Part shown: one piece after another, positions 4,753-18,606 of the stretch | Position numbering within the stretch: position 1 is the stretch's first letter | Layout: the number at the start of each line of letters is the position of its first letter | Assembly (NCBI RefSeq): GCF_003143555.1 | Contig: NZ_CP029347.1 | Span: 248,001 to 312,000 of the forward strand | Reading direction: 5' to 3' | From: Saliniradius amylolyticus | Lineage (GTDB): Bacteria > Pseudomonadota > Gammaproteobacteria > Enterobacterales > Alteromonadaceae | Length of the DNA stretch: 64,000 nucleotides | Notes under the pieces: model-generated | Told to the model about the DNA's origin: nothing | Database searches by the model: none | Seen by the model: the letters and a program-made list of their open reading frames with translations, nothing else | Translations under genes and position numbers: made by a program

Positions 4753-6306
4753 ATGCGTTTAGTAATGCTTATCGCCAGTCTCTTTCTGAGCTCGGCTGCA
4801 CAAGCCGAGGTGGACTGGGTTATCCGCTCGGACCGGGTATTTACCGGCGAGCAAAACACTCCTCAGGCGTTGGATGTTGCGTTGTGTGGCGAGCGAATCT
4901 GCCGTATTGCCCCGTTGGGTGCCATTAAGACCACGAAGAATAAGCTGGTTGATGCCAGGGGGTTAATAGTAGCCCCTGGCTTCATCGACCCCCATACCCA
5001 TGCCTTGCCAGAGCTGATGCACGCCGATAAGGCCGTCAATGCCAATTACCTTACTCAGGGCGTGACCACCGTAGTGGTAGGTAACGACGGAGCCGGTAGT
5101 GCGGATATTCAGGGGCGGACGCAGGCCATGCTGTTTCACGGTATTGGCACCAATGTGGGGTTATTAGTGGGCCATGGAGCGGTTCGAAAGCAGGTGCTCG
5201 GTCAGGCAGACACCAGGCCTGATAAGCAACAACTGGCCGCCATGAAGACGCTGGTTCGTGAAGCTATGAAAGACGGTGCTTTGGGGTTGTCGTCAGGACT
5301 GTTTTATACCCCGGGCAGCTTCGCCGATACTCAGGAAGTGATTGCGCTGGCTCAGGAGGTGGCACCATTCTCAGGTTACTACGACACCCACTTGCGAGAC
5401 GAAGGTGCCTTTAATGTTGGTATCCTTGCAGCGCTGGATGAGGCCATCGCAATTGCCGAAAACGCCTCGGTGCCACTGCATATTTCTCATCTTAAGTTAC
5501 TTGGGGTGGATGTATGGGGCCAAAGCCAGGCGGTCATCAAGAAGGTCGAACAGGCTCATGAGCGCGGTGTGGTGGTCAGTGCTGACCAATATCCCTGGCT
5601 GGCCTCAGGAACATCGTTTCGAGCCGCCTTAGTGCCCAGGTGGGCCAGAGCGGGTGGTGAAGCTCAGCTTCAGGCCAGGCTGACAGATACAGCTACGCTT
5701 CAGAAGATAAAGCGGGATATGGCTGATAACCTCCGGGGACGGGGCGGCGCCGATTCTTTGTTGATAACTCGTGGGCCGACATCGTATCTGGGGCAGACTT
5801 TAGGTGAGGTCGCCGAGAAACGAGAACAGTCGGCAGTGGACACTGCCATTGAACTTATCCAGGAAGCCACTTTTGGTGTCGCGTCTTTCAATATGCAGGC
5901 AGACGATGTGAAAGCTTTAATGAAGCAGCCCTGGGTGGTGACCTCTTCGGACGGATCTGATGGGCACCCGCGAAAATTCGCAAGCTTTCCGCGTAAGTAT
6001 CAGGACTATGTGCGCAATGCATCGGTGCTGACGCTGGCACAGTTTATTCATCAAAGCAGTAGCAAAACGGCCGACGTTCTGGGCTTACCAGAACGTGGAC
6101 GTATTAAAGTCGGCTACTATGCCGACCTGACGGTGTTTCATCCCAAAAACTATGCGCCGCGGGCGACCTTCGAGTATTGGGACCGGTTTAGCACAGGGGT
6201 GCGTTACCTGTTCGTCAATGGCGTTCCGGCCATTGACGAAGGTGAACTGACCGGACGCCGACCGGGCCGTGTACTCAGGCGTCAGCCCGATCAGCAGGAG
6301 CCTTGA
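4753..6306 (+). CDS. Exported D-aminoacylase / N-acyl-D-amino-acid deacylase family amidohydrolase
   Basis: Amidohydrolase-superfamily enzyme predicted to hydrolyse N-acyl-D-amino acids or a related amide in the periplasm. A signal peptide (residues 1-18, cleavage after AQA) precedes the domain. Metal ligands visible are H81 and H83 in DPHTHA, LHISHLK further on, and the family motif DGSDGHPRKFASFPRKY; GRIKVGYYADLTVF at the C-terminus is the usual composite beta-sandwich strand. In the classical enzymes a zinc-ligand cysteine follows the second strand (NCG motif); here the equivalent segment reads GNDGAG with D112, so the metal centre must differ. AGGAGG sits just before the ATG. It converges on yebG with 15 bases between stops. 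The exact substrate is not assignable. Confidence 0.85.
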   Translation: MRLVMLIASLFLSSAAQAEVDWVIRSDRVFTGEQNTPQALDVALCGERICRIAPLGAIKTTKNKLVDARGLIVAPGFIDPHTHALPELMHADKAVNANYLTQGVTTVVVGNDGAGSADIQGRTQAMLFHGIGTNVGLLVGHGAVRKQVLGQADTRPDKQQLAAMKTLVREAMKDGALGLSSGLFYTPGSFADTQEVIALAQEVAPFSGYYDTHLRDEGAFNVGILAALDEAIAIAENASVPLHISHLKLLGVDVWGQSQAVIKKVEQAHERGVVVSADQYPWLASGTSFRAALVPRWARAGGEAQLQARLTDTATLQKIKRDMADNLRGRGGADSLLITRGPTSYLGQTLGEVAEKREQSAVDTAIELIQEATFGVASFNMQADDVKALMKQPWVVTSSDGSDGHPRKFASFPRKYQDYVRNASVLTLAQFIHQSSSKTADVLGLPERGRIKVGYYADLTVFHPKNYAPRATFEYWDRFSTGVRYLFVNGVPAIDEGELTGRRPGRVLRRQPDQQEP

Positions 6307-8146: not shown

Positions 8147-10141
8147 TTATAAAAGTGGTGCAATCACCAGACTGACAATGGCCATCACGTTAATCAGGAT
8201 GTTCATTGATGGGCCTGATGTGTCCTTGAAGGGGTCGCCCACGGTATCTCCGACGACGGTGGCTGCGTGTACCTCAGACCCTTTGCCGCCAAAGTTGCCT
8301 TTTTCCACATGCTTTTTGGCATTATCCCAGGCGCCACCGGCGTTGGCCATCATCAGCGCCAGCAGTACGCAGCCCAACAAGGCTCCGCCCAGCATCCCGC
8401 CCAACGCATGGGGACCGATGCCAAAGCCCACTAATGGGGGCGCCGCTACGGCAATCACACCGGGCAAAACCATCTTTTTAAGCGCGGCGGTCGTGGCGAT
8501 ATCAACACAGCGAGCGGTGTCCGGCTCGGCTCGGCCCTCCATCAGGCCTTTGATTTCATGGAACTGACGACGTATTTCCTTAATCATGGCAAAGGCCGCA
8601 TCGCCCACTGCGGTCATGGTGATAGAAGCGATCAGAAACGGCAGCAGACCCCCTAAGAATAGTCCCACCAGTACCTCGGGATTCCCCAGGTGAAGGGTGA
8701 AATCCACATACTTGAGCGACAGTGTCTCAACGAAAGCGGCGATGATCGCCAGGGCTGCCAGTGCGGCCGCACCGATAGCAAAACCCTTGCCGATGGCGGC
8801 GGTGGTGTTACCCAATTCATCGAGGGAGTCGGTAATGGCCCGGGTCTCCGCTCCCAGGCCTCCCATTTCAGCAATGCCTCCGGCATTATCGGCCACGGGA
8901 CCATAGGCGTCGATGGCCATAGTAATGCCTACGGTGGCGAGCATCCCGACTGCCGCGATACCCACGCCGTACAGACCGGATAACTGAGTGGATGCGAAAA
9001 TGATGACACAGATGGTTAAAAGTGGCACCACTACCGACTGCATACCCACCGCTAAGCCGGTGATCATCACCGTTGCCGGTCCTGTCTGACCGGCCTCGGC
9101 AATCTTACGCACCGGTTTGGCGGCGGTGTAATATTCGGTAACGAGTCCGATAATAATACCGCCGAGGGCGCCGGTCAGGATGGACCACCACACATGGGTA
9201 TGAATGGCTAAGGCATCTACCACAAAGAAGGCCACGATCATAAACAGGACTGACGAAGTCAGGGTACCGGCCCGCAGCGCGGTTTCCGGCTGGCTGCTTG
9301 AGAGCATCCGCACCAGAAAGATGCCGAGGACTGAGCACAAAAGCCCTGCAGAGGCCAGTGCCAGGGGTAGGAACATCAGGTTTTCCCTTACACCCAACAC
9401 ACTGACGGTCATGGCCGACGCGATGGCAATGGTGGCGATCATTGAGCCGCAGTACGACTCGAAAATATCCGATCCCATCCCCGCTACATCGCCGACGTTA
9501 TCGCCTACATTATCGGCAATCACACCGGGGTTTCGGGGATCATCCTCGGGAATGCCCGCTTCCACCTTACCCACCAGGTCAGCGCCCACGTCGGCACTCT
9601 TGGTGAAGATGCCGCCGCCGACCCGGGAAAACAGCGCCACTGTAGAGGCGCCCATACCGAAGCCATGGATAACATGGGCGGTGGCCGGATCGCTGCCAAA
9701 CAGCCAGTACAACAGCCCTAAACCCAGTAGACCCATAGAGGCCACGCATAACCCCATGATGGAGCCGCCGGAAAAGGCAATCGACAGCGCCGCAGCCGCC
9801 CCTTCATCGTGAGCTGCCTGAGTGGTGCGAACATTGGCTTTGGTGGCGGTGAACATGCCGAAATAGCCTGCCAGGCCTGAGCAAATGGCCCCCACCGCGA
9901 AGGCCAAAGTGGTGTTGGCCCCCAGAGTGAAAAACAGCACCACCGCCAGCACCACGGAAAAAATAAACAGCATCTGATATTCCCGGTGCATAAAGACCAT
10001 GGCACCGAGGTGGATTTTGTCTGCGATGCTGGCGATCTTAGGGTTGGAGACAGGGTGACGTTTGACTAGCAGGTAGAGTAACAGCGCGATAACTAAGCCC
10101 ACCACACCGAATAGTGGTGGTAGCAGTAAGTAGTTGTCCAT
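8147..10141 (-). CDS. hppA: Membrane-bound K+-dependent pyrophosphatase (H+ or Na+ pumping)
   Basis: Integral inner-membrane enzyme that couples PPi hydrolysis to H+ and/or Na+ export. The 664-residue protein has the catalytic core [20 protein letters not shown] at about residues 198-217 and the second acidic cluster [12 protein letters not shown] at 411-422; the C-terminal third carries [14 protein letters not shown]. The segment [14 protein letters not shown] (444-457) has Ala448 and Gly451 at the positions that are Lys and Thr in K+-independent enzymes, so this is the K+-dependent class, which includes Na+ pumps. About 16 membrane helices are expected. AGGA precedes the ATG. A soluble pyrophosphatase gene lies 8 kb away. 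Confidence 0.95.
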
Positions 10142-10370: not shown

Positions 10371-10937
10371 TTGAAAGCAAGTGATGATTCAGAGGCTGGC
10401 GCTGAGGGCTGGTACGAAAGCCTGGTGCTAAATACTCACAATAAGCTCAAGCGCGCTTTAGGTCGAATGTTGTCGGCTGCTGAGGCCGATGAGGTTATTC
10501 AGGAGTCTTATCTTAAGCTTTTTGAAGTGTGCAAAGAGGCTGTGCCAGAAAACCCTCAAGGTTATGTATATCGTATTGCTCGCAACTTTGCTCTCACCCG
10601 CTTAAGGAACAAAGAAGTTGCCAGAAAGTTCCTCGAGCAACGAGTCGAAGATATCGAGGTGGTCTCGGGGGATAGTCAATCCTTTGAGTCTGTAAAGGCG
10701 AAACAGCAACACGAGCAGTTACAGTCCGTAATTAGTCAATTGCCCCCGGTTTGCCGGCAGGTGTTTGTGCTCAGGAAATTGCATGGTTATAGCCACAGAG
10801 AAATCGCAGAAACTATGCAGATCTCCCAGAAAACGGTGGAAAATCACATTGCCCGAGGTATGAGGGCATGCTTTGATGCCTTTCGTCGGCCCTCTCAAAC
10901 CAGTCCAGACAGCGCTAAGTATCAACAGTACAGGTAA
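10371..10937 (+). CDS. ECF-family RNA polymerase sigma factor (FecI-like)
   Basis: Extracytoplasmic-function sigma factor of 188 residues. Region 2 is recognisable in EADEVIQESYLKLFEV and NPQGYVYRIARNFALTRLRNK (about residues 38-83). Region 4 has LPPVCRQVFVLRKLHGYSHREIAE followed by the helix-turn-helix MQISQKTVENHIARGMRACF (about 124-170). The start is the TTG at 10371; an in-frame stop lies 9 bases upstream and no later Met would preserve region 2. The C-terminal tail of about 18 residues is Ser/Gln-rich. Its stop codon overlaps the start of the mini anti-sigma gene (TAATG), so the two are translationally coupled. The TonB receptor downstream is the likely regulated gene, as in FecI/FecR/FecA-type systems. 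Confidence 0.9.
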   Translation: MKASDDSEAGAEGWYESLVLNTHNKLKRALGRMLSAAEADEVIQESYLKLFEVCKEAVPENPQGYVYRIARNFALTRLRNKEVARKFLEQRVEDIEVVSGDSQSFESVKAKQQHEQLQSVISQLPPVCRQVFVLRKLHGYSHREIAETMQISQKTVENHIARGMRACFDAFRRPSQTSPDSAKYQQYR

Positions 10938-11269
10938 TGGCCATGTCTATTGACGAATGGGTGGGATATGGCATTCCAGAAGAAATTATTGAACAGGCTA
11001 TTTCCTGGCTGACGCGCCTAGACTCAGGAGAGATGAGTGACGACGAAAAAGCCTTATTTATGAGTTGGTTGGATGATGATCCCACCCACCGATGGGCCTT
11101 TGAAGAAATGTCGACCGTGTGGGCCAGGACATCAATCAGACCGGAAGCATCAGTTCCAGAAACCAAGCCTTCCAATAAATCCACAGCACCTAGCGCAGGC
11201 TATTACTCATTATTGAGCTATATCACCATTGCCTTAATAGCGTTGGGTTTAGTTGCAGGTATTTTGTAA
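10937..11269 (+). CDS. Truncated FecR-like anti-sigma factor (N-terminal domain plus one membrane helix)
   Basis: The 110-residue product has the cytoplasmic FecR N-terminal domain (DUF4880 type): QAISWLTRLDSGEMSDDEKA followed by FMSWLDDDPTHRWAFEEM, about residues 21-66. A 25-residue Pro/Ser/Lys linker and one hydrophobic helix (about 92-110) follow, and the protein ends right there. Normal FecR proteins run to about 320 residues with a periplasmic signalling domain; no such domain is found in any frame in the next 220 bases, so this looks like a natural short form and not a frameshift. It overlaps the sigma gene by one base. It could still hold the sigma factor at the membrane, but how it would receive a signal is unclear. 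The ATG at 10943 is an alternative start. Confidence 0.8.
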   Translation: MAMSIDEWVGYGIPEEIIEQAISWLTRLDSGEMSDDEKALFMSWLDDDPTHRWAFEEMSTVWARTSIRPEASVPETKPSNKSTAPSAGYYSLLSYITIALIALGLVAGIL

Positions 11270-11329
11270 CATCAAGGCCTAACGACCAGGTGTATGTAAA
11301 AAACCGGTTGCTGATGACAAGACTCATGC

Positions 11330-11382
11330 CCCTACTCGTGGCTCCTATGCTGTTCACAGTATCTTTTGGGAGCCGAATAGGG
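11330..11382. repeat. Nested inverted repeat between the anti-sigma gene and the TonB receptor gene
   Basis: Outer arms are CCCTA (11330-11334) with TAGGG (11378-11382) and GGCTCC (11340-11345) with GGAGCC (11369-11374). Inside the loop is a second palindrome-like core, CTGTTCACAG, at about 11350-11359. There is no T tract after it, so it is not an ordinary terminator; an operator or a 5'-leader RNA structure is more likely. The rest of the 220-base gap is AT-rich, and I see no convincing promoter hexamers in it. Confidence 0.5.
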
Positions 11383-11489
11383 TAAGCGGATTTAAAAAGT
11401 TTTAAAAATTAGTAGGGGAAGTAACGTTCTCGTGCGTTTACATATTGATAACAAGAAAAATCATCGAATTATCATATGGAGCACAGCAA

Positions 11490-14400
11490 ATGTTAAACCC
11501 TATTACCCAGGCGATTCGAGGTCGAAAAGCCAGTTTATTAACACTCCCACTTACCATAGTCGCGGGCCTGAGCGCCTTTGGTCTTAATGCACAGGAACAA
11601 GACGCTAAGTCTGCCGAGGCTGAAGACGTTGAACGCGTTGCCGTGGTGGGCTCACAAATTCGAGGTGGCAAGGTCAGCGAAGCTCTGGCCGTTTCCGTCT
11701 TCGATGCCGAAGATATTGCCGAACTGGGCATTGAGTCGGGCGATGAGTTACTCGACTTGATCCCGGAAAACGGACAGAACTTCTTCAATGAAGCCGGTAA
11801 TATAGGCGGTGGTGTTAACGCCTCTCGCGGTGATGTGGGCGCATTTAACCTACGCAACTTAGGTACAGGTAATACTCTGGTACTGCTCAATGGCCGTCGA
11901 ATGGTTAACTCAGCCTCTTACCAGACCGAAGAAGTAGGCGGCAGCTTTGTACCCGTGAATTCTGTTAACTCCAACACCATTCCCGTTGGTGGCCTGCAGC
12001 GTTTAGAAGTACTGCGTGATGGTGCCTCGGCGATTTATGGTGCCGACGCCGTGGCCGGAGTGGTCAACAATGTCTTAAAAACCGACTTTGTGGGCTTTAA
12101 TGTCGGTGTTCGCTACAAGGATTATGAGAATCTCCCCCGGAATGACAAAAAACTCACCATAGAGTGGGGTGAAGACTTTAATGACGGTCGTACCAATGTC
12201 AGTGTCTTTGGTAGTTACTATGATCGTGGGCGGGTGAATTCTACCCACGATCCTCGCTGGTCCAATTCAGATTTCCGTGACCGCATTCCTGAAGACTCTC
12301 CCTGGGCGGGCGACAGAAACTTTCGTAATAACTCGGCAAATTCACTCTATGGTCAGTTTGATCTTCAGGGCGCAAGCGCAAGCAGTGTAGGTCTGGAGGG
12401 TGTCCTTACTGATAGCCGAGGCGAGTTTGAAACCTATCCCATCGGCGACGAGCGCTGTCAGTACACTATTAACGAGTACATTTGCGGTGCCATCGATGGT
12501 CAGGGCGTGGAGAGGTTTAACTTCAACGGAAATGCGGGCATCGGCCGGGATCTGGTGTCTGATTTAGAGCGTCGGAACTTGTTTATCTTCGTCAACCATG
12601 CCTTCGATAACGGCATGGAATCCTTTACCGAGGCATCCTATTACAATTTTACCTCCAATCTGATCCGACATCCTTCTGCTCAGTTCTCGACTTCGGAGTT
12701 GCGTGTTGGCGCCCAGAACTATTACAACCCTTTTGGCCCCTGTGGCTCGCCAAACCGCCTTCCGGATGAAATGATTCCGGATGTGCCTTGTGAAGGGCTT
12801 GAGTTTAGGCTGGATAACTACCGCTTCGCCGAATTGCCGCGAATTGTTGACAATAAAGGGACAACATTCCGCTTATTACAAGGCTTGCGCGGCTATATTG
12901 GTGATTGGGAGTGGGAGTCGGCAATTGCCTACTCCAAGGCCAAAAAGTCTGATGTGACCCACAACCGTGTATCCAATACCCTGATGCAGGAGGCCTTGTT
13001 TGATCCGACCGAAGCGGCCTATAACCCATTCAGTGCGGGTGTAGACAGTAATATTGAGCGTGCTTTGGTCGATGTACGTCGAGACAATGAAACCACCCTG
13101 ACTACCTTTGACATCAAAGCTTTTCACCCCGCAATGTTTGAATTGCCTGGTGGAGAAGCGGGATTGTTAGTTGGATTAGACTACCGACGTGAAACCTTTG
13201 AAGACGATCGTGACCCCAGGCTGGATGGAACCATTCGCTTTACCGACTGGGAAGGCGATACCTACCCCTTCGTTTCGGATGTGGCGAACTCCAGCCCAAC
13301 GCCGGACAACAGCGGGTCACGTAAGGTAACCTCGCTGTTTACCGAGCTGCAATTGCCGGTGCTGGATACTCTGGACGTGCAAGCGGCTCTGCGGTATGAA
13401 GACTTCTCTGATGTGGGGGACACCACTGTTGGCAAGCTGGCTTTCGGATGGAGGCCTACAGAGTCTGTGTTGATTCGCGGTTCCTGGTCAGAAGCCTTCC
13501 GTGCGCCGAATCTGGTGACCATCAATGAAGAATTTGTTGCCCGTAGTAATACCCGTACCGACTGGACTTGTGTGTATGCCGCGGAAAACGGCGGCGATCC
13601 GGATCAGGATGTGCTGGACTGCCGTAACTCCACTCAGCGTAGTGCTGAAGGCAGCCAGGATCTGGAACCGGAGGATTCTACCAACACCTCTTTAGGCCTG
13701 GTGCTGACGCCCACCGATAGCTTGACCTTGACGCTGGATTACTGGTCTATTGAGAAAAACAACACCATTGGCTTGTTGGGTGAGGAAAACCACACATTGC
13801 TCGATTTGGTGTACCGGTTACAAGGGGATGTGAATAATTGCATGACCAACCCGGCAGTAGATCGGGTTGAAGCGTCCGCTGATCAGGCTGAGGTCTACGA
13901 GGCCGCTGGCTTATGTCCTGCTGGTGATATCCGCTTTATTAACGACACCTACGCCAACCTTGATACGCGAACCGTACAGGGATATGACATCGGTGTTTAC
14001 TACGAGGAAACTTTCGATTTCGGTCGCTTAGACTTCCGTTATAATGCCTCCATCCTGGACAAGTTTGAGCAAGAAGCGGGCGGCGATGCAGCGGTACTGG
14101 TGAATGCCAAAGAACAGGGTATATTGCCAGAGAGCTTCCCTGTGACGGGGTTTGCTGACCTGATCGGTAAAGATGGTAATCAAAAACAGCGTCACACCTT
14201 TAAGCTCTCTTGGAGGCAAGGTGATTGGGGGGCAGCTGTGTCAGGCAACCGTATTGGCAGTTTCTATCAGAGCCATTTGACATTGGATGACGGCACTAAA
14301 TACATCATTCCTGCCATGACCACCTATGATGCTATGGTCGATTACCGCTTCGACGTGAATGACGTACGCACACGGGTGCGCTTTGGGGTTAAGAACCTGA

Positions 14401-14504
14401 CCGATGAACGAGCCCCGCTAGCCGATGATTACTTTGGTTTCGCTTCAGATGCCCATCGTGACTATGGCCGCAATTACTATGTTGACGTGAAAGCGTATTT
14501 CTAA
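11490..14504 (+). CDS. TonB-dependent outer-membrane receptor
   Basis: Active-transport beta-barrel of 1004 residues. The ATG at 11490 is chosen: GGAG lies 8 bases upstream and it starts a signal peptide ending at about ALGLNAQ-type residues (LSAFGLNAQ), whereas the TTG at 11445 only adds a polar leader. The plug domain contains AVSVFDAEDIAELG, LNGRRMV and DGASAIYGADAVAGVVN; the barrel ends in YYVDVKAYF with the C-terminal Phe required for BAM recognition. Extracellular-loop segments carry paired cysteines (for example CQYTINEYIC, CGSPNRLPDEMIPDVPC and CVYAAENGGDPDQDVLDC), as in the large receptors of marine and Xanthomonas-like bacteria that import peptides or glycans. It follows the sigma/anti-sigma pair and ends in a strong terminator. 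Confidence 0.93.
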   Translation: MLNPITQAIRGRKASLLTLPLTIVAGLSAFGLNAQEQDAKSAEAEDVERVAVVGSQIRGGKVSEALAVSVFDAEDIAELGIESGDELLDLIPENGQNFFNEAGNIGGGVNASRGDVGAFNLRNLGTGNTLVLLNGRRMVNSASYQTEEVGGSFVPVNSVNSNTIPVGGLQRLEVLRDGASAIYGADAVAGVVNNVLKTDFVGFNVGVRYKDYENLPRNDKKLTIEWGEDFNDGRTNVSVFGSYYDRGRVNSTHDPRWSNSDFRDRIPEDSPWAGDRNFRNNSANSLYGQFDLQGASASSVGLEGVLTDSRGEFETYPIGDERCQYTINEYICGAIDGQGVERFNFNGNAGIGRDLVSDLERRNLFIFVNHAFDNGMESFTEASYYNFTSNLIRHPSAQFSTSELRVGAQNYYNPFGPCGSPNRLPDEMIPDVPCEGLEFRLDNYRFAELPRIVDNKGTTFRLLQGLRGYIGDWEWESAIAYSKAKKSDVTHNRVSNTLMQEALFDPTEAAYNPFSAGVDSNIERALVDVRRDNETTLTTFDIKAFHPAMFELPGGEAGLLVGLDYRRETFEDDRDPRLDGTIRFTDWEGDTYPFVSDVANSSPTPDNSGSRKVTSLFTELQLPVLDTLDVQAALRYEDFSDVGDTTVGKLAFGWRPTESVLIRGSWSEAFRAPNLVTINEEFVARSNTRTDWTCVYAAENGGDPDQDVLDCRNSTQRSAEGSQDLEPEDSTNTSLGLVLTPTDSLTLTLDYWSIEKNNTIGLLGEENHTLLDLVYRLQGDVNNCMTNPAVDRVEASADQAEVYEAAGLCPAGDIRFINDTYANLDTRTVQGYDIGVYYEETFDFGRLDFRYNASILDKFEQEAGGDAAVLVNAKEQGILPESFPVTGFADLIGKDGNQKQRHTFKLSWRQGDWGAAVSGNRIGSFYQSHLTLDDGTKYIIPAMTTYDAMVDYRFDVNDVRTRVRFGVKNLTDERAPLADDYFGFASDAHRDYGRNYYVDVKAYF

Positions 14505-14517
14505 CCTTGAGTCAGTG

Positions 14518-14553
14518 AAAGAGAAAAGTGGGGAGACCCGCTTTTCTCTTTTT
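14518..14553 (+). terminator. Intrinsic terminator after the TonB receptor gene
   Basis: A 15-bp stem (AAAGAGAAAAGTGGG with a GAGA tetraloop paired to CCCGCTTTTCTCTTT, one T-G wobble) runs straight into TTTTTATTT. It lies 13 bases after the receptor stop, so the transporter gene downstream needs read-through or its own promoter. Confidence 0.92.
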
Positions 14554-14573
14554 ATTTAATGAAGTAGAAAACT

Positions 14574-16067
14574 ATGACAGAAGAAAAAAAAACAACTAAA
14601 GCCGGTGATGCTACCAGTCGCGGGCGCTATCAGGACATTGGACTCGTGTTAGGGCCATTGGCCTTTGCCTTGATGATGATGTTTGCCTCTTCGCAAACGG
14701 CCATGCCTGATGTGGCCTGGCGCACGGCCGCCATTGGTATCTGGATGGCCATATGGTGGGCATCGGAAGCTATTCCGGTTCCTGCCACGGCACTGGTGCC
14801 TCTGGCTATGTTTGATATTCTCGGTATCGCCAGCTTTAAGGAAGCTGCCGCTCCTTTTGCTAACCCCATTATCTATCTATTCCTTGGCGCTTTTTTACTG
14901 GCCATATCGGTAGAGAAATGGAATTTGCATAAGCGAATTGCCCTTAGCCTACTGTCGGTTACCGGCACTGAAGGGAGGCGTTTAATTGCCGGCTTCATGC
15001 TGGTAGCAGCATTTTTATCCATGTGGATGAGTAATACCTCAACCACTCTAATGTTGTTGCCTATCGCACTTTCCGTGGCGAAAGTGATTGCCGATAACCT
15101 AACTGAAGCCTCAGAAACACAAATCAAACACTTCCAAACGGCTTTGTTATTGGGGCTGGCTTATGCGGCAACCATTGGCGGTCTATCGACCCTTATCGGC
15201 ACACCACCGAATGCCTTGCTGGCGGCATTTTTATCAGAAAACTATGATATGAAGATCGACTTTATCACCTGGATGAAAGTCGGCTTACCAGTCAGTTTTA
15301 TTATGTTGCCACTGGCGTGGTTTATTCTGACTCGTGTGGTGTACAAGGTGGATATTGCTGCCAATCAGGCGGTAGATGCCCACCTTAATAAACTACGTGA
15401 AGAGCTGGGCACCATGAAGCCAGCTGAGAAACGTGTCGCCGTGGTCTTCGTGCTGGTAATCGCTTCGTGGATATTACGCAGACCTTTAACTGAATGGTTG
15501 GGGCTGGAGGGAGTCACTGACGCTGGTATCGCGATGCTTGCCGCCTTACTGCTGTTTTTAATCCCTAGCGATAAAGGTGGGGTGACGCGCCTTCTTAATT
15601 GGCATGACGCCAGCCGTGTGCCGTGGGGGGTGTTGATTCTCTTCGGTGGAGGCTTGAGTCTGGCTGCTGCGGTTTCCAATTCGGGCTTGGCGACCTTCCT
15701 GGGTGAATCACTGCAACCGTTATCGATCTTTGGTATTGCGGCATTAATCATCGGTGCTACCGCCTTGGTGATTTTCCTGACGGAGCTAACCAGTAATCTG
15801 GCAACGACGGCGACCTTATTGCCAGTGGTGGCTGCGATTGCCATGCAAATGGATATATCTCCGCTGCTGCTGACCGTCCCTGTTACTCTGGCGGCCAGCT
15901 GTGCCTTTATGTTGCCGGTGGCAACACCTCCGAATGCCATCGTCTTTGCTTCTGGTATGTTGACCATTCCACAGATGATCCGCTGTGGGGTGCTCCTGAA
16001 CATCTTAGGAATGGTCCTGCTGTCTATCGTGGCGGTGTGGTGGGCACCCATGTTGTTAATAGGATAA
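14574..16067 (+). CDS. DASS/SLC13-family Na+-coupled anion (dicarboxylate-type) transporter
   Basis: Inner-membrane secondary carrier of 497 residues with about 11-12 hydrophobic segments. The two Ser-Asn-Thr-type substrate/Na+ hairpins of the divalent-anion symporter family are visible: MWMSNTSTTLMLLPIAL in the first half and LTSNLATTATLLPVVAA in the second, each with a following Pro-rich clamp (STLIGTPPNALL and VATPPNAIVFASG). Family members move succinate, malate, citrate, sulfate or N-acyl-amino acids; the solute here is not predictable. The start ATG lies 20 bases after the receptor terminator; the next gene follows after 4 bases, so they form an operon with the two exported hydrolases. 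Confidence 0.9.
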   Translation: MTEEKKTTKAGDATSRGRYQDIGLVLGPLAFALMMMFASSQTAMPDVAWRTAAIGIWMAIWWASEAIPVPATALVPLAMFDILGIASFKEAAAPFANPIIYLFLGAFLLAISVEKWNLHKRIALSLLSVTGTEGRRLIAGFMLVAAFLSMWMSNTSTTLMLLPIALSVAKVIADNLTEASETQIKHFQTALLLGLAYAATIGGLSTLIGTPPNALLAAFLSENYDMKIDFITWMKVGLPVSFIMLPLAWFILTRVVYKVDIAANQAVDAHLNKLREELGTMKPAEKRVAVVFVLVIASWILRRPLTEWLGLEGVTDAGIAMLAALLLFLIPSDKGGVTRLLNWHDASRVPWGVLILFGGGLSLAAAVSNSGLATFLGESLQPLSIFGIAALIIGATALVIFLTELTSNLATTATLLPVVAAIAMQMDISPLLLTVPVTLAASCAFMLPVATPPNAIVFASGMLTIPQMIRCGVLLNILGMVLLSIVAVWWAPMLLIG

Positions 16068-16071
16068 AACC

Positions 16072-16887
16072 ATGATGCGTAAATTAAGCTTATTCATTTT
16101 GTTAGCTGTTGGCGCTTTTTCAATTTCCTCGGCTGCCAAGGAGATAGAAAAGCCGGAGGTGAACCCCTCGAGCACGCCTCAGAAAGTACTCTTTGTGGGC
16201 AACAGCTTCAGTTACTTCAATGGAGGCTTACATAACCATGTGAGCAACCTGATTCGGGCGGCTGGTAAGTGGCAGAGAGGTCAAAACCGCTATCGCATGA
16301 AGACCCTCTCGGGTGGGAAGTTATATGAACATGTTGCTGGCATGCCGTATCTTGCCGATCAACCCAAGGGCAAGGCCTGGGATATGGTTGTTATCCAAGG
16401 TCACTCCAATGAATCGGTGACGAAAAAGCGTTATAAAAAGTTTGTTCAGGGCGCTAAGGTATTGACCAAGGTCATTCGTCAACATGGTGCAGAGCCCGTG
16501 CTGTTCATGACCTGGCCCTATAAGCATCATAAGGAAATGACAGATGCCTTGCACAGCAGCTATGTTAGTTTGGGCAATCATCTCGACGCTTTAGTCGCTC
16601 CGGTTGGTTTGGCCTTCGATCATGTCAACCATAAGCACCCGGAGATTGATCTCTATCACGCCGACGTTAAAGGTTTTACTGAGCAGGGAGACGTGATTTA
16701 CAAAGAGGACTTAAAGCACCCGTCTCTGGCAGGTACCTATTTAGCCGCCTGCGTGTTTTACGCTACCTTCTATCAAGAGTCCCCACAGGGCTTAGCCTAT
16801 GATGCCGATTTGCCCAAAGAGGTGGCTAACGCCTTGCAGGCGGCGGCATGGCAAACCTATCAGCAGTTCTATGGAGTCTCTCAATAA
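16072..16887 (+). CDS. Exported SGNH/DUF4886-like hydrolase
   Basis: The 271-residue product has a signal peptide (about residues 1-22) and an SGNH-type layout: block I FVGNSFSYFN with candidate nucleophile Ser45, block III region DMVVIQGHSNES near 104-114, and block V EDLKHPSLAGTYLAA with candidate Asp213 and His216. These match the catalytic Ser and Asp-x-x-His of SGNH esterases, most like the DUF4886 group, whose substrates are mostly unknown. Predicted location is periplasm or outside the cell. It starts 4 bases after the transporter stop. Its last 17 bases overlap the start of the M14 peptidase gene. The esterase activity is inferred from motifs only. Confidence 0.8.
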   Translation: MMRKLSLFILLAVGAFSISSAAKEIEKPEVNPSSTPQKVLFVGNSFSYFNGGLHNHVSNLIRAAGKWQRGQNRYRMKTLSGGKLYEHVAGMPYLADQPKGKAWDMVVIQGHSNESVTKKRYKKFVQGAKVLTKVIRQHGAEPVLFMTWPYKHHKEMTDALHSSYVSLGNHLDALVAPVGLAFDHVNHKHPEIDLYHADVKGFTEQGDVIYKEDLKHPSLAGTYLAACVFYATFYQESPQGLAYDADLPKEVANALQAAAWQTYQQFYGVSQ

Positions 16888-17953
16888 CTCAAAGAGCAGG
16901 CTAACTGGCCTGCTCTTTTTTTTCTGCCTGGGGGTATTTGAGTCTCAAGCAGAAAGCTGCGAAGCCAATGGTTTGCAGGTTCATGACCATTTTGGTGGTG
17001 GAGCCTTCGCTCGCTGTTCAATGACCGGTGATGGTGCGGTTAAGGTGATCATTAGACCAGAAAACCTGCCGATCAATCCGAGTCCCTGGTATGCGATGGC
17101 GTTAGAGTCTGAATCTAAGCGTCAATTGACCTTGTTGCTTGAATACTCGCACAGCAAACATCGCTATTGGCCAAAGTTCAGCTCTGACTTTATTCATTGG
17201 TATCCTTTGCCAACAGAGCATGTACACCTCAGCGCGGATCAACGCCTTAGGGCCGATAATCTGGATGTGAGGTTGAATCATTACGGAAAGTCTGTTCAGG
17301 GAAGAGTGCTGACAGGTCTTGTTAGCGATAGACACCGTCCGAAGACATATATCGTATTACTGGGACGGGCTCACCCGCCAGAAGTGACAGGTGCCTTAGC
17401 AATGCAGCAATTTGTTCAGACCTTGTTGGCCAAGACAGCATTGGCAGAAAAGTTCAGGCAGCAATTTGCACTGCTGATATATCCCAACCTCAACCCCGAT
17501 GGTGTGGCCAATGGTTATTGGCGGCATAATGCCAAGGGGCATGATCTCAATCGTGACTGGGGTATATTTTCCCAACCAGAAGTAGAAACCTTATGGCGTG
17601 ATATTGAAAGGCAGCGGAGAGATGGGGAAATTGCGGTGATGCTTGACTTTCACTCCACCCGAAAGAATATTTTCTATATCCAGCCTGACTCCTTGCCTTC
17701 GAAATATCCGCAGTTTGCCCAGCATTGGCACAGAGCGATACAACAAAAAGGGGCTGAATTGACCTTCGATCTCAGACCCGGCCATTCTTCAAAACGAACC
17801 AACGCCAAGACCTTCTTTTACAAACAACTTCAGATCCCTGCCATTACCTATGAGGTCGCCGATTCAGCAACGCCAAGTTCAATTGCCTCTAGTGCGAAGC
17901 TGTCGGCGCAAGCCTTTATGGAGTTGTTACTGAAAACTCACTGCTTCAAATAA
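16871..17953 (+). CDS. Exported M14-family zinc carboxypeptidase
   Basis: Metallocarboxypeptidase of 360 residues from the ATG at 16871, the only start that supplies a signal peptide ([19 protein letters not shown]). Zinc and catalytic residues in M14 order: H168 and E171 (RAHPPEVTG), the substrate-binding NR pair N227/R228 (HDLNRDW), third zinc ligand H261 (LDFHST) and catalytic Glu328 (ITYEVAD). The N-terminal 130 residues form a beta-rich domain, as in cytosolic-carboxypeptidase-like M14 members. The gene overlaps the SGNH gene by 17 bases with a poor ribosome-binding site, so translation is probably coupled. A perfect terminator hairpin lies within codons 7-18, which could cut expression sharply. 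Likely substrates are peptides or amino-acyl conjugates in the periplasm. Confidence 0.85.
16891..16923 (+). terminator. Intrinsic terminator embedded in the signal-peptide codons of the M14 gene
   Basis: A perfect 11-bp stem, AAAGAGCAGGC (16891-16901) with GCCTGCTCTTT (16908-16918) and a 6-base loop, is followed by an 8-base T run (16916-16923). It lies just after the SGNH-hydrolase stop (16887) but is inside the M14 open frame, where the T run encodes the Phe-rich hydrophobic core of the signal peptide. It may act as an attenuator that translating ribosomes would melt. Confidence 0.85.
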
Positions 17954-18015
17954 CCAGAGGCATAATATTGAATAAATTGTCCACAAGTCGAGTTTTCTAT
18001 TGGGGCTGGAGCCGA

Positions 18016-18021
18016 TATAAT
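18016..18021 (+). promoter_or_regulatory. Probable -10 element of the ppa promoter
   Basis: A perfect TATAAT lies 37 bases before the ppa start codon, just after the M14 gene. The segment 17 bases upstream (TTTTCT) is a weak -35 match, so only the -10 is called. Confidence 0.5.
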
Positions 18022-18057
18022 CGCCGCAGTTTTTATAACTTCAACACAGGATCTCCC

Positions 18058-18606
18058 ATGAGCTTGAACAATGTACCTGCTGGCGACAAGCTGCCAGAAG
18101 AAGTCAATGTGATCATCGAAATCCCGGCGCACGCCGATCCGGTCAAATACGAAGTGGACAAGGACTCCGGTGCTTTGTTTGTGGACCGCTTTATGGCCAC
18201 TTGCATGCACTATCCCACCAACTATGGCTATGTGCCGCACACTCTGTCAGAAGATGGTGACCCTGTAGACGTATTGGTGCCTACGCCTTTCCCTCTGCTA
18301 CCGGGTTCGGTGATCGCCTGTCGTCCGGTGGGCGTACTGAAGATGACCGATGAGTCAGGCACTGATGCCAAGGTGCTGGCTGTACCAAAAGACAAACTGT
18401 CCACGGTCTATCGCGGTATTAAGGACATCAATGATCTGTCAGAGCTGCTGCGCCATCAGATTGAGCATTTCTTCGAGCACTACAAAGATTTGGAACCTAA
18501 TAAATGGGTTAAAATCGATGGCTGGGCCGATGCGGCGGCGGCTAAGAAAGAGATCGAAAGCAGCGTAAAACGCTATAACGACTCACCGGAAAAACCGGCA
18601 TTCTAA
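18058..18606 (+). CDS. ppa: Soluble inorganic pyrophosphatase (family I)
   Basis: Hydrolyses PPi to phosphate in the cytoplasm, pulling biosynthetic reactions forward. The 182-residue product has the family I signature [10 protein letters not shown], the Lys-Tyr substrate site [10 protein letters not shown], and [11 protein letters not shown]. The ATG at 18058 is chosen over an in-frame ATG 90 bases earlier: it has AGGA upstream, matches the family length (about 176), and follows the TATAAT element. The upstream alternative would place the promoter inside the gene. The gene ends in its own terminator. The genome therefore has both a soluble and a membrane pyrophosphatase. Confidence 0.96.

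Follow-up and report, generated by a model that had tools for sequence, protein, structure and literature searches.

Gene content and layout of the locus

The window, a 64,000-nucleotide stretch corresponding to positions 248001–312000 of the 3.2-Mb single-contig genome of Saliniradius amylolyticus, harbors six consecutive genes encoding an ECF sigma factor, a small anti-sigma factor, a TonB-dependent receptor, a DASS-family carrier, an SGNH hydrolase and an M14 metallocarboxypeptidase (Table 1). All six had been proposed in an earlier sequence-only reading and were found in place on the same strand, and the one-base coupling it described for the sigma/anti-sigma pair is borne out by the overlap taATG at 10937. 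Its picture of short gaps or overlaps holds for this junction and for that between the hydrolases, where the M14 start overlaps the SGNH end by 17 bases, but not for the 220-bp gap between anti-sigma and receptor, which houses a dedicated promoter. Likewise, the terminator noted after the receptor is present, but is not the only one, a second strong hairpin being located within the M14 gene. The receptor start was assigned to the ATG at 11490, preceded by GGAG; the alternative TTG at 11445 coincides with the expected transcription start.

Table 1. Features of the six-gene locus, in window coordinates
Feature	Position	Strand	Basis
ECF sigma factor, sigma70 regions 2 and 4, TTG start	10371–10937	+	Pfam PF04542/PF08281
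Tail-anchored mini anti-sigma: DUF4880 domain, then one C-terminal transmembrane helix	10937–11269	+	PF16220 only
Putative ECF promoter TAGGGG-N15-GCGT, 5' of receptor	11413–11437	+	Same element in relatives' loci
TonB-dependent receptor, no STN domain	11490–14504	+	PF00593 and PF07715 only
Terminator-like hairpin, receptor/DASS interval	14517–14552	+	-24.3 kcal/mol, z -6.4
DASS-family sodium-coupled carboxylate carrier (function from family)	14574–16067	+	TIGR00785 over cut-off
SGNH hydrolase (DUF4886), predicted exported	16072–16887	+	PF16227; fold Z 22 to 4i8i
M14 metallocarboxypeptidase, cytosolic-carboxypeptidase-like, predicted exported	16871–17953	+	PF00246
Strong intrinsic-terminator-like hairpin within M14 signal-peptide codons	16891–16918	+	-19.6 kcal/mol, z -5.1

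The operon is flanked by a membrane pyrophosphatase (8147–10141, minus strand) and a soluble pyrophosphatase (17968–18606, plus strand), a pair common only to the nearest relative (L040); the start of the latter probably lies near 18058 rather than at the TTG at 17968.

Conservation of the module

Of 397 genomes of the family, 32 carry SGNH orthologues and 37 carry receptor orthologues (64–92% identical); the named organisms bearing the closest receptors are Neptunicella marina, Alteromonas sediminis and Glaciecola. The gene-neighborhood comparison suggested by the sequence-only reading was run over 32 loci, comprising the SGNH loci fetched and the window's own, and did not find the genes scattered: the order sigma factor, anti-sigma, receptor, DASS, SGNH, M14 is kept on one strand in 18, three of which also carry a tandem receptor-DASS-SGNH copy. 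More generally, SGNH adjoins receptor and carrier in 25 of the 32, the remaining SGNH loci having no receptor, a broken cluster or one inverted unit, and a sigma orthologue is the first gene of the cluster in 25 loci, the window included. Since the same order recurs across many genera, the arrangement is far above chance, and the six genes form a real, conserved module. The flanking genes vary from genus to genus. No description of this gene set together with TonB receptors was found in the open-access literature. Divergence from the nearest orthologue is unevenly distributed, with dN values, at near-saturation of synonymous sites, of 0.05 for the receptor, 0.04 for DASS, 0.15 for SGNH, 0.31 for the sigma factor and 0.49 for M14, identifying receptor and carrier, by their far lower values, as the constrained part of the module.

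A dedicated promoter and a truncated anti-sigma factor

Of 25 sigma-bearing loci, 22 have the exact element TAGGGG-N15-GCGT in front of the receptor, and in the tandem clusters L058, L059 and L065 it stands before both receptors. None of the sigma-less loci has it at this place, and within the window's genome it occurs only once. It was not found 5' of the sigma gene, nor 5' of SGNH, M14 or lyase units facing away from the receptor. This distribution links the sigma factor with the receptor operon, and suggests that TAGGGG-N15-GCGT is the sequence that the sigma factor reads. Together with the conserved gene order, a dedicated promoter at the receptor upholds the earlier claim of a single functional unit. 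Upstream of the sigma gene itself, CRP, sigma70 and Fur motifs showed no enrichment over shuffles.

The proposal of FecI/FecR-type control stands for the sigma factor alone, as the periplasmic domain of FecR and the signaling domain of the receptor are both missing. In the window's anti-sigma the membrane helix spans residues 92–110 with zero residues beyond it, and no match to a FecR or other periplasmic domain was found; the receptor comprises plug and barrel only. All 24 anti-sigmas examined share the architecture of a DUF4880-type domain and one C-terminal membrane helix, with 0–1 residues following the latter. By comparison, DUF4880 open frames at other loci of 31 related genomes encode 324–397 aa, and the only short ones (116 and 164 aa) are the two of this locus, in the window's own genome and in G005. 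Because both contact domains are absent, FecA/FecR surface signaling cannot operate here as known. E. coli FecR shortened to its membrane segment activates FecI without inducer (PMC9249621), and removal of the periplasmic part of FecR leads to its cleavage by RseP (PMC8144685); a naturally short anti-sigma should therefore behave as permanently primed, and by analogy would resemble the primed end-product of the FecR cascade. Speculatively, the input signal probably arrives via cleavage of the tail-anchored anti-sigma within the membrane, or else by way of the carrier or cytosolic sensing. This protein offers a clean test case for ECF sigma switching without surface signaling.

A FecI-type sigma factor paired with a DUF4880 anti-sigma, beside a receptor whose plug is nearest to FepA/PfeA-type receptors, might also suggest ferric-siderophore uptake accompanied by periplasmic hydrolysis of the siderophore. 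This is very improbable, since no Fur-box enrichment was found upstream of sigma or receptor, STN and FecR domains are absent, and the usual partners are C4-dicarboxylate carriers, joined in relatives by malic enzyme and lyases.

The carrier and the two hydrolases

Assignment of the carrier to the DASS family is secure (304.4 bits against TIGR00785, with a cut-off of 198.6). Its motifs TSNLAT and PVATPPN match those of SLC13A2/A5 and differ from those of the sulfate carrier SLC13A1, and these carboxylate-type motifs are kept in most orthologues; sulfate is accordingly disfavored as cargo. Malate, fumarate and succinate are typical substrates of DASS import, whereas aspartate is not. Terminator-like hairpins similar to that preceding the carrier gene occur in several relatives.

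Both hydrolases are predicted to be exported, in agreement with the sequence-only reading. PF16227 matched all 13 SGNH proteins examined. Ser45, Gly81 and His216 are invariant, while Asp213 of the block V DxxH motif is present in the window protein but not conserved among relatives; the best fold match, 4i8i, is itself a DUF4886 protein. The M14 protein possesses the HxxE...H zinc ligands, the Asn-Arg clamp and the catalytic Glu on a CCP fold, with H168, E171, N227, R228, H261 and E328 invariant and K313 near-invariant. Lys313 is located 15 residues before the catalytic Glu328, which is the spacing of residue 255 in carboxypeptidase A, and in this putative S1' position it would suit acidic P1' residues. 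The nearest folds, at Z scores of 27–29, belong to bacterial CCP-like enzymes (4a37, 3l2n) and to CCP5, a glutamate-removing enzyme.

The state of the M14 gene in the window is less certain. Its start overlaps the SGNH stop, and the hairpin found in 16871–16950 doubles as signal-peptide codons; no hairpin comparable to 16891–16918 was found at the SGNH/M14 junction of relatives. With so strong a terminator in this position the window's M14 may be weakly expressed, and the gene may be either under translation-coupled attenuation or decaying. The latter would reduce the core to receptor, DASS and SGNH, with a hardly expressed M14, and would be compatible with the polyaspartate reading of the whole module discussed below. 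It is a possibility of some substance, to which the terminator, the loss of an N-domain stretch that includes a near-invariant Tyr and Trp, and the difference in dN (0.49 for M14 versus 0.05 for the receptor, against the nearest orthologue) all contribute, but one that we lean against, as the reading frame and all catalytic residues are intact and coupled translation via the SGNH overlap could suppress the hairpin.

Partners of the receptor in other lineages

In a tree of 83 receptors, 30 Alteromonadaceae sequences, mostly of the sigma type, have a ten-member clade as their neighbor. Loci of the latter encode an exported alpha/beta hydrolase and DASS together with a dCache histidine kinase and an NtrC-type regulator, and some of them add an NAD malic enzyme. 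In this sister clade the alpha/beta hydrolase stands in place of SGNH and M14. More distant receptors of SAR86 retain DASS alongside gamma-glutamyltransferase and M20 enzymes, others are accompanied by LysR, DadA and a D-aminoacylase-like enzyme, and those of sphingomonads by DctA, with or without the kinase and regulator; a C4-dicarboxylate carrier (DASS or DctA) is mostly kept in these orthologous settings, and it is the hydrolases and regulators that change. Lyases of the fumarase/adenylosuccinate-lyase superfamily are normally cytosolic, yet exported members adjoin receptor and DASS at six loci in three lineages (L051:10525–11922, L061, L123, L153, L159 and L168). What recurs is the combination of a C4-dicarboxylate carrier and exported enzymes whose targets are acidic monomers in amide or ester linkage. 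Because gamma-glutamyltransferase, D-aminoacylase or an alkylsulfatase can also accompany the receptor family, the ligand may vary between clades. The alkylsulfatase case is L128:8926–14033, where it follows a receptor orthologue (66%) with none of the usual partners, and where the ligand may differ. The window itself encodes an exported amidohydrolase (4753–6306, plus strand) mostly 44–50% identical to the receptor-adjoining D-aminoacylase-like enzymes found elsewhere, situated 4 kb upstream of the sigma gene and without the promoter element, a placement that may be coincidental.

A link to poly(aspartic acid) hydrolases

The sister clade's exported alpha/beta hydrolase is a homologue of poly(aspartic acid) hydrolase-1 (PahZ1, 6ve6), with E values of 1.2e-47 for a single sequence and 7e-96 in a profile search. 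Among 394 family genomes, all nine homologues of the sister-clade enzyme at 55% identity or above adjoin the receptor. The reverse search, using residues 36–286 of the solved PahZ1 sequence against 324 phylum genomes, placed four of its best five matches (L242, L243, L244 and L246, but not L245) within a few genes of the receptor family; weaker matches (31–38%) were not beside it. L242 unites a PahZ1-like hydrolase, DASS, DctA, a lyase, DadA, a D-aminoacylase-like enzyme, M14 and the receptor, and is the single locus best suited to reconstructing the pathway. The window's genome gave no match to PahZ1, its homologues being confined to the sister loci. Homology of 35–47% does not fix specificity. 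The bonds that PahZ1 cleaves are internal beta-amide linkages of D/L-polyaspartate, and the enzyme bears a likeness to PHB depolymerases, whose targets are beta-ester polymers (PMC4456602). SGNH has no homology to PahZ1, and its position in the cluster is what suggests that it may share the same role. The C4 carriers, malic enzyme, fumarate-type lyase and D-amino-acid enzymes encoded around these receptors all fit aspartate chemistry.

The sequence-only reading had envisaged an ester- and amide-linked anionic compound. Its anionic character is supported by the carboxylate-type DASS pocket, the acid-type M14 pocket and the C4-dicarboxylate genes of relatives, but an ester-plus-amide conjugate is not required, and since the sister clade swaps SGNH and M14 for a PahZ1 homologue, an amide-linked polyanion is the simpler reading, with an ester polymer such as polymalate as a possible alternative. 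The main idea survives in altered form; what is new is the mode of control and the likely class of substrate.

Proposed function

The reading that we tentatively favor, with confidence a little short of even, is a self-contained nutrient-uptake operon whose targets are acidic oligomers assembled from C4-dicarboxylate units; chains of the polyaspartate type, or a natural compound much like them, are the likeliest. As the conserved element suggests, the sigma factor would read one promoter and so turn on receptor, carrier and hydrolases. The TonB receptor, judging by its family, would carry the oligomer into the periplasm, where SGNH may cut it internally, filling the PahZ1-type role of the sister clade, and M14, according to its pocket, could trim acidic C-terminal residues; DASS would then import the freed C4 acids, as is the function of its family. 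Several points weigh against this reading: SGNH and PahZ1 lack homology, the ligand may differ from clade to clade, aspartate would be an atypical cargo for DASS, and the window's M14 looks compromised. Thermal polyaspartate is man-made, and polyaspartate hydrolases are known mainly from their action on such polymer. If correct, this function would give these enzymes a transport and regulatory context, and point to the existence of a natural polyanion on which marine bacteria draw, among them SAR86 and the Alteromonadaceae relatives.

A broader specificity, in which the receptor binds any sizeable conjugate of a C4/C5 dicarboxylic acid (malyl, aspartyl or glutamyl, in ester or amide linkage, e.g., beta-polymalate) and each clade's hydrolases set the chemistry, is rather unlikely. 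It would accommodate the exchange of SGNH, alpha/beta hydrolase, M14, GGT, M20 and D-aminoacylase around one receptor family, the malic enzyme and one tartrate dehydrogenase near clusters, the mostly esterase activity of SGNH enzymes and the likeness of PahZ1 to beta-ester-cutting PHB depolymerases (PMC4456602). However, the 64–92% receptor identity across the family suggests one ligand there, and the best-characterized linked enzyme acts on aspartate amides. A more far-reaching version of the polyaspartate proposal can be offered as a long shot, namely a widespread marine system that scavenges beta-linked D/L-aspartate-rich polymers or aged isoaspartyl peptides via a dedicated TonB receptor, governed by a new envelope switch: a tail-anchored FecR remnant devoid of its outer part and invariably of a size accessible to the intramembrane protease RseP, which would be signaled to through the membrane or cytoplasm, e.g., by the DASS carrier, and not by the receptor.

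Comparison with known systems

The locus resembles FecI-FecR-FecA in its succession of ECF sigma factor and DUF4880 anti-sigma beside a TonB receptor, and in the conserved promoter element preceding the latter. It departs from that system in an anti-sigma that stops at the membrane helix, a receptor without signaling domain, the lack of Fur-box enrichment, and a cargo of carboxylate carrier and hydrolases rather than iron transport. The carrier shows full-length homology and carboxylate-type pocket motifs in common with SLC13/DASS proteins (SLC13A2, SLC13A5, VcINDY), but shares its operon with a TonB receptor, and its carboxylate cargo is a prediction. Similarly, the M14 fold matches CCP-like enzymes over both domains, although the window protein is predicted to be exported and its N domain is truncated. 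Closest in probable chemistry is poly(aspartic acid) degradation by PahZ1 and PahZ2 in Sphingomonas sp. KT-1 and Pedobacter sp. KP-2, for which PMC4456602 describes no receptor, carrier or regulator with PahZ1; in the sister loci, homologues of PahZ1 are encoded together with the orthologous receptor and carrier, whereas the window has SGNH and M14 where PahZ1 stands.
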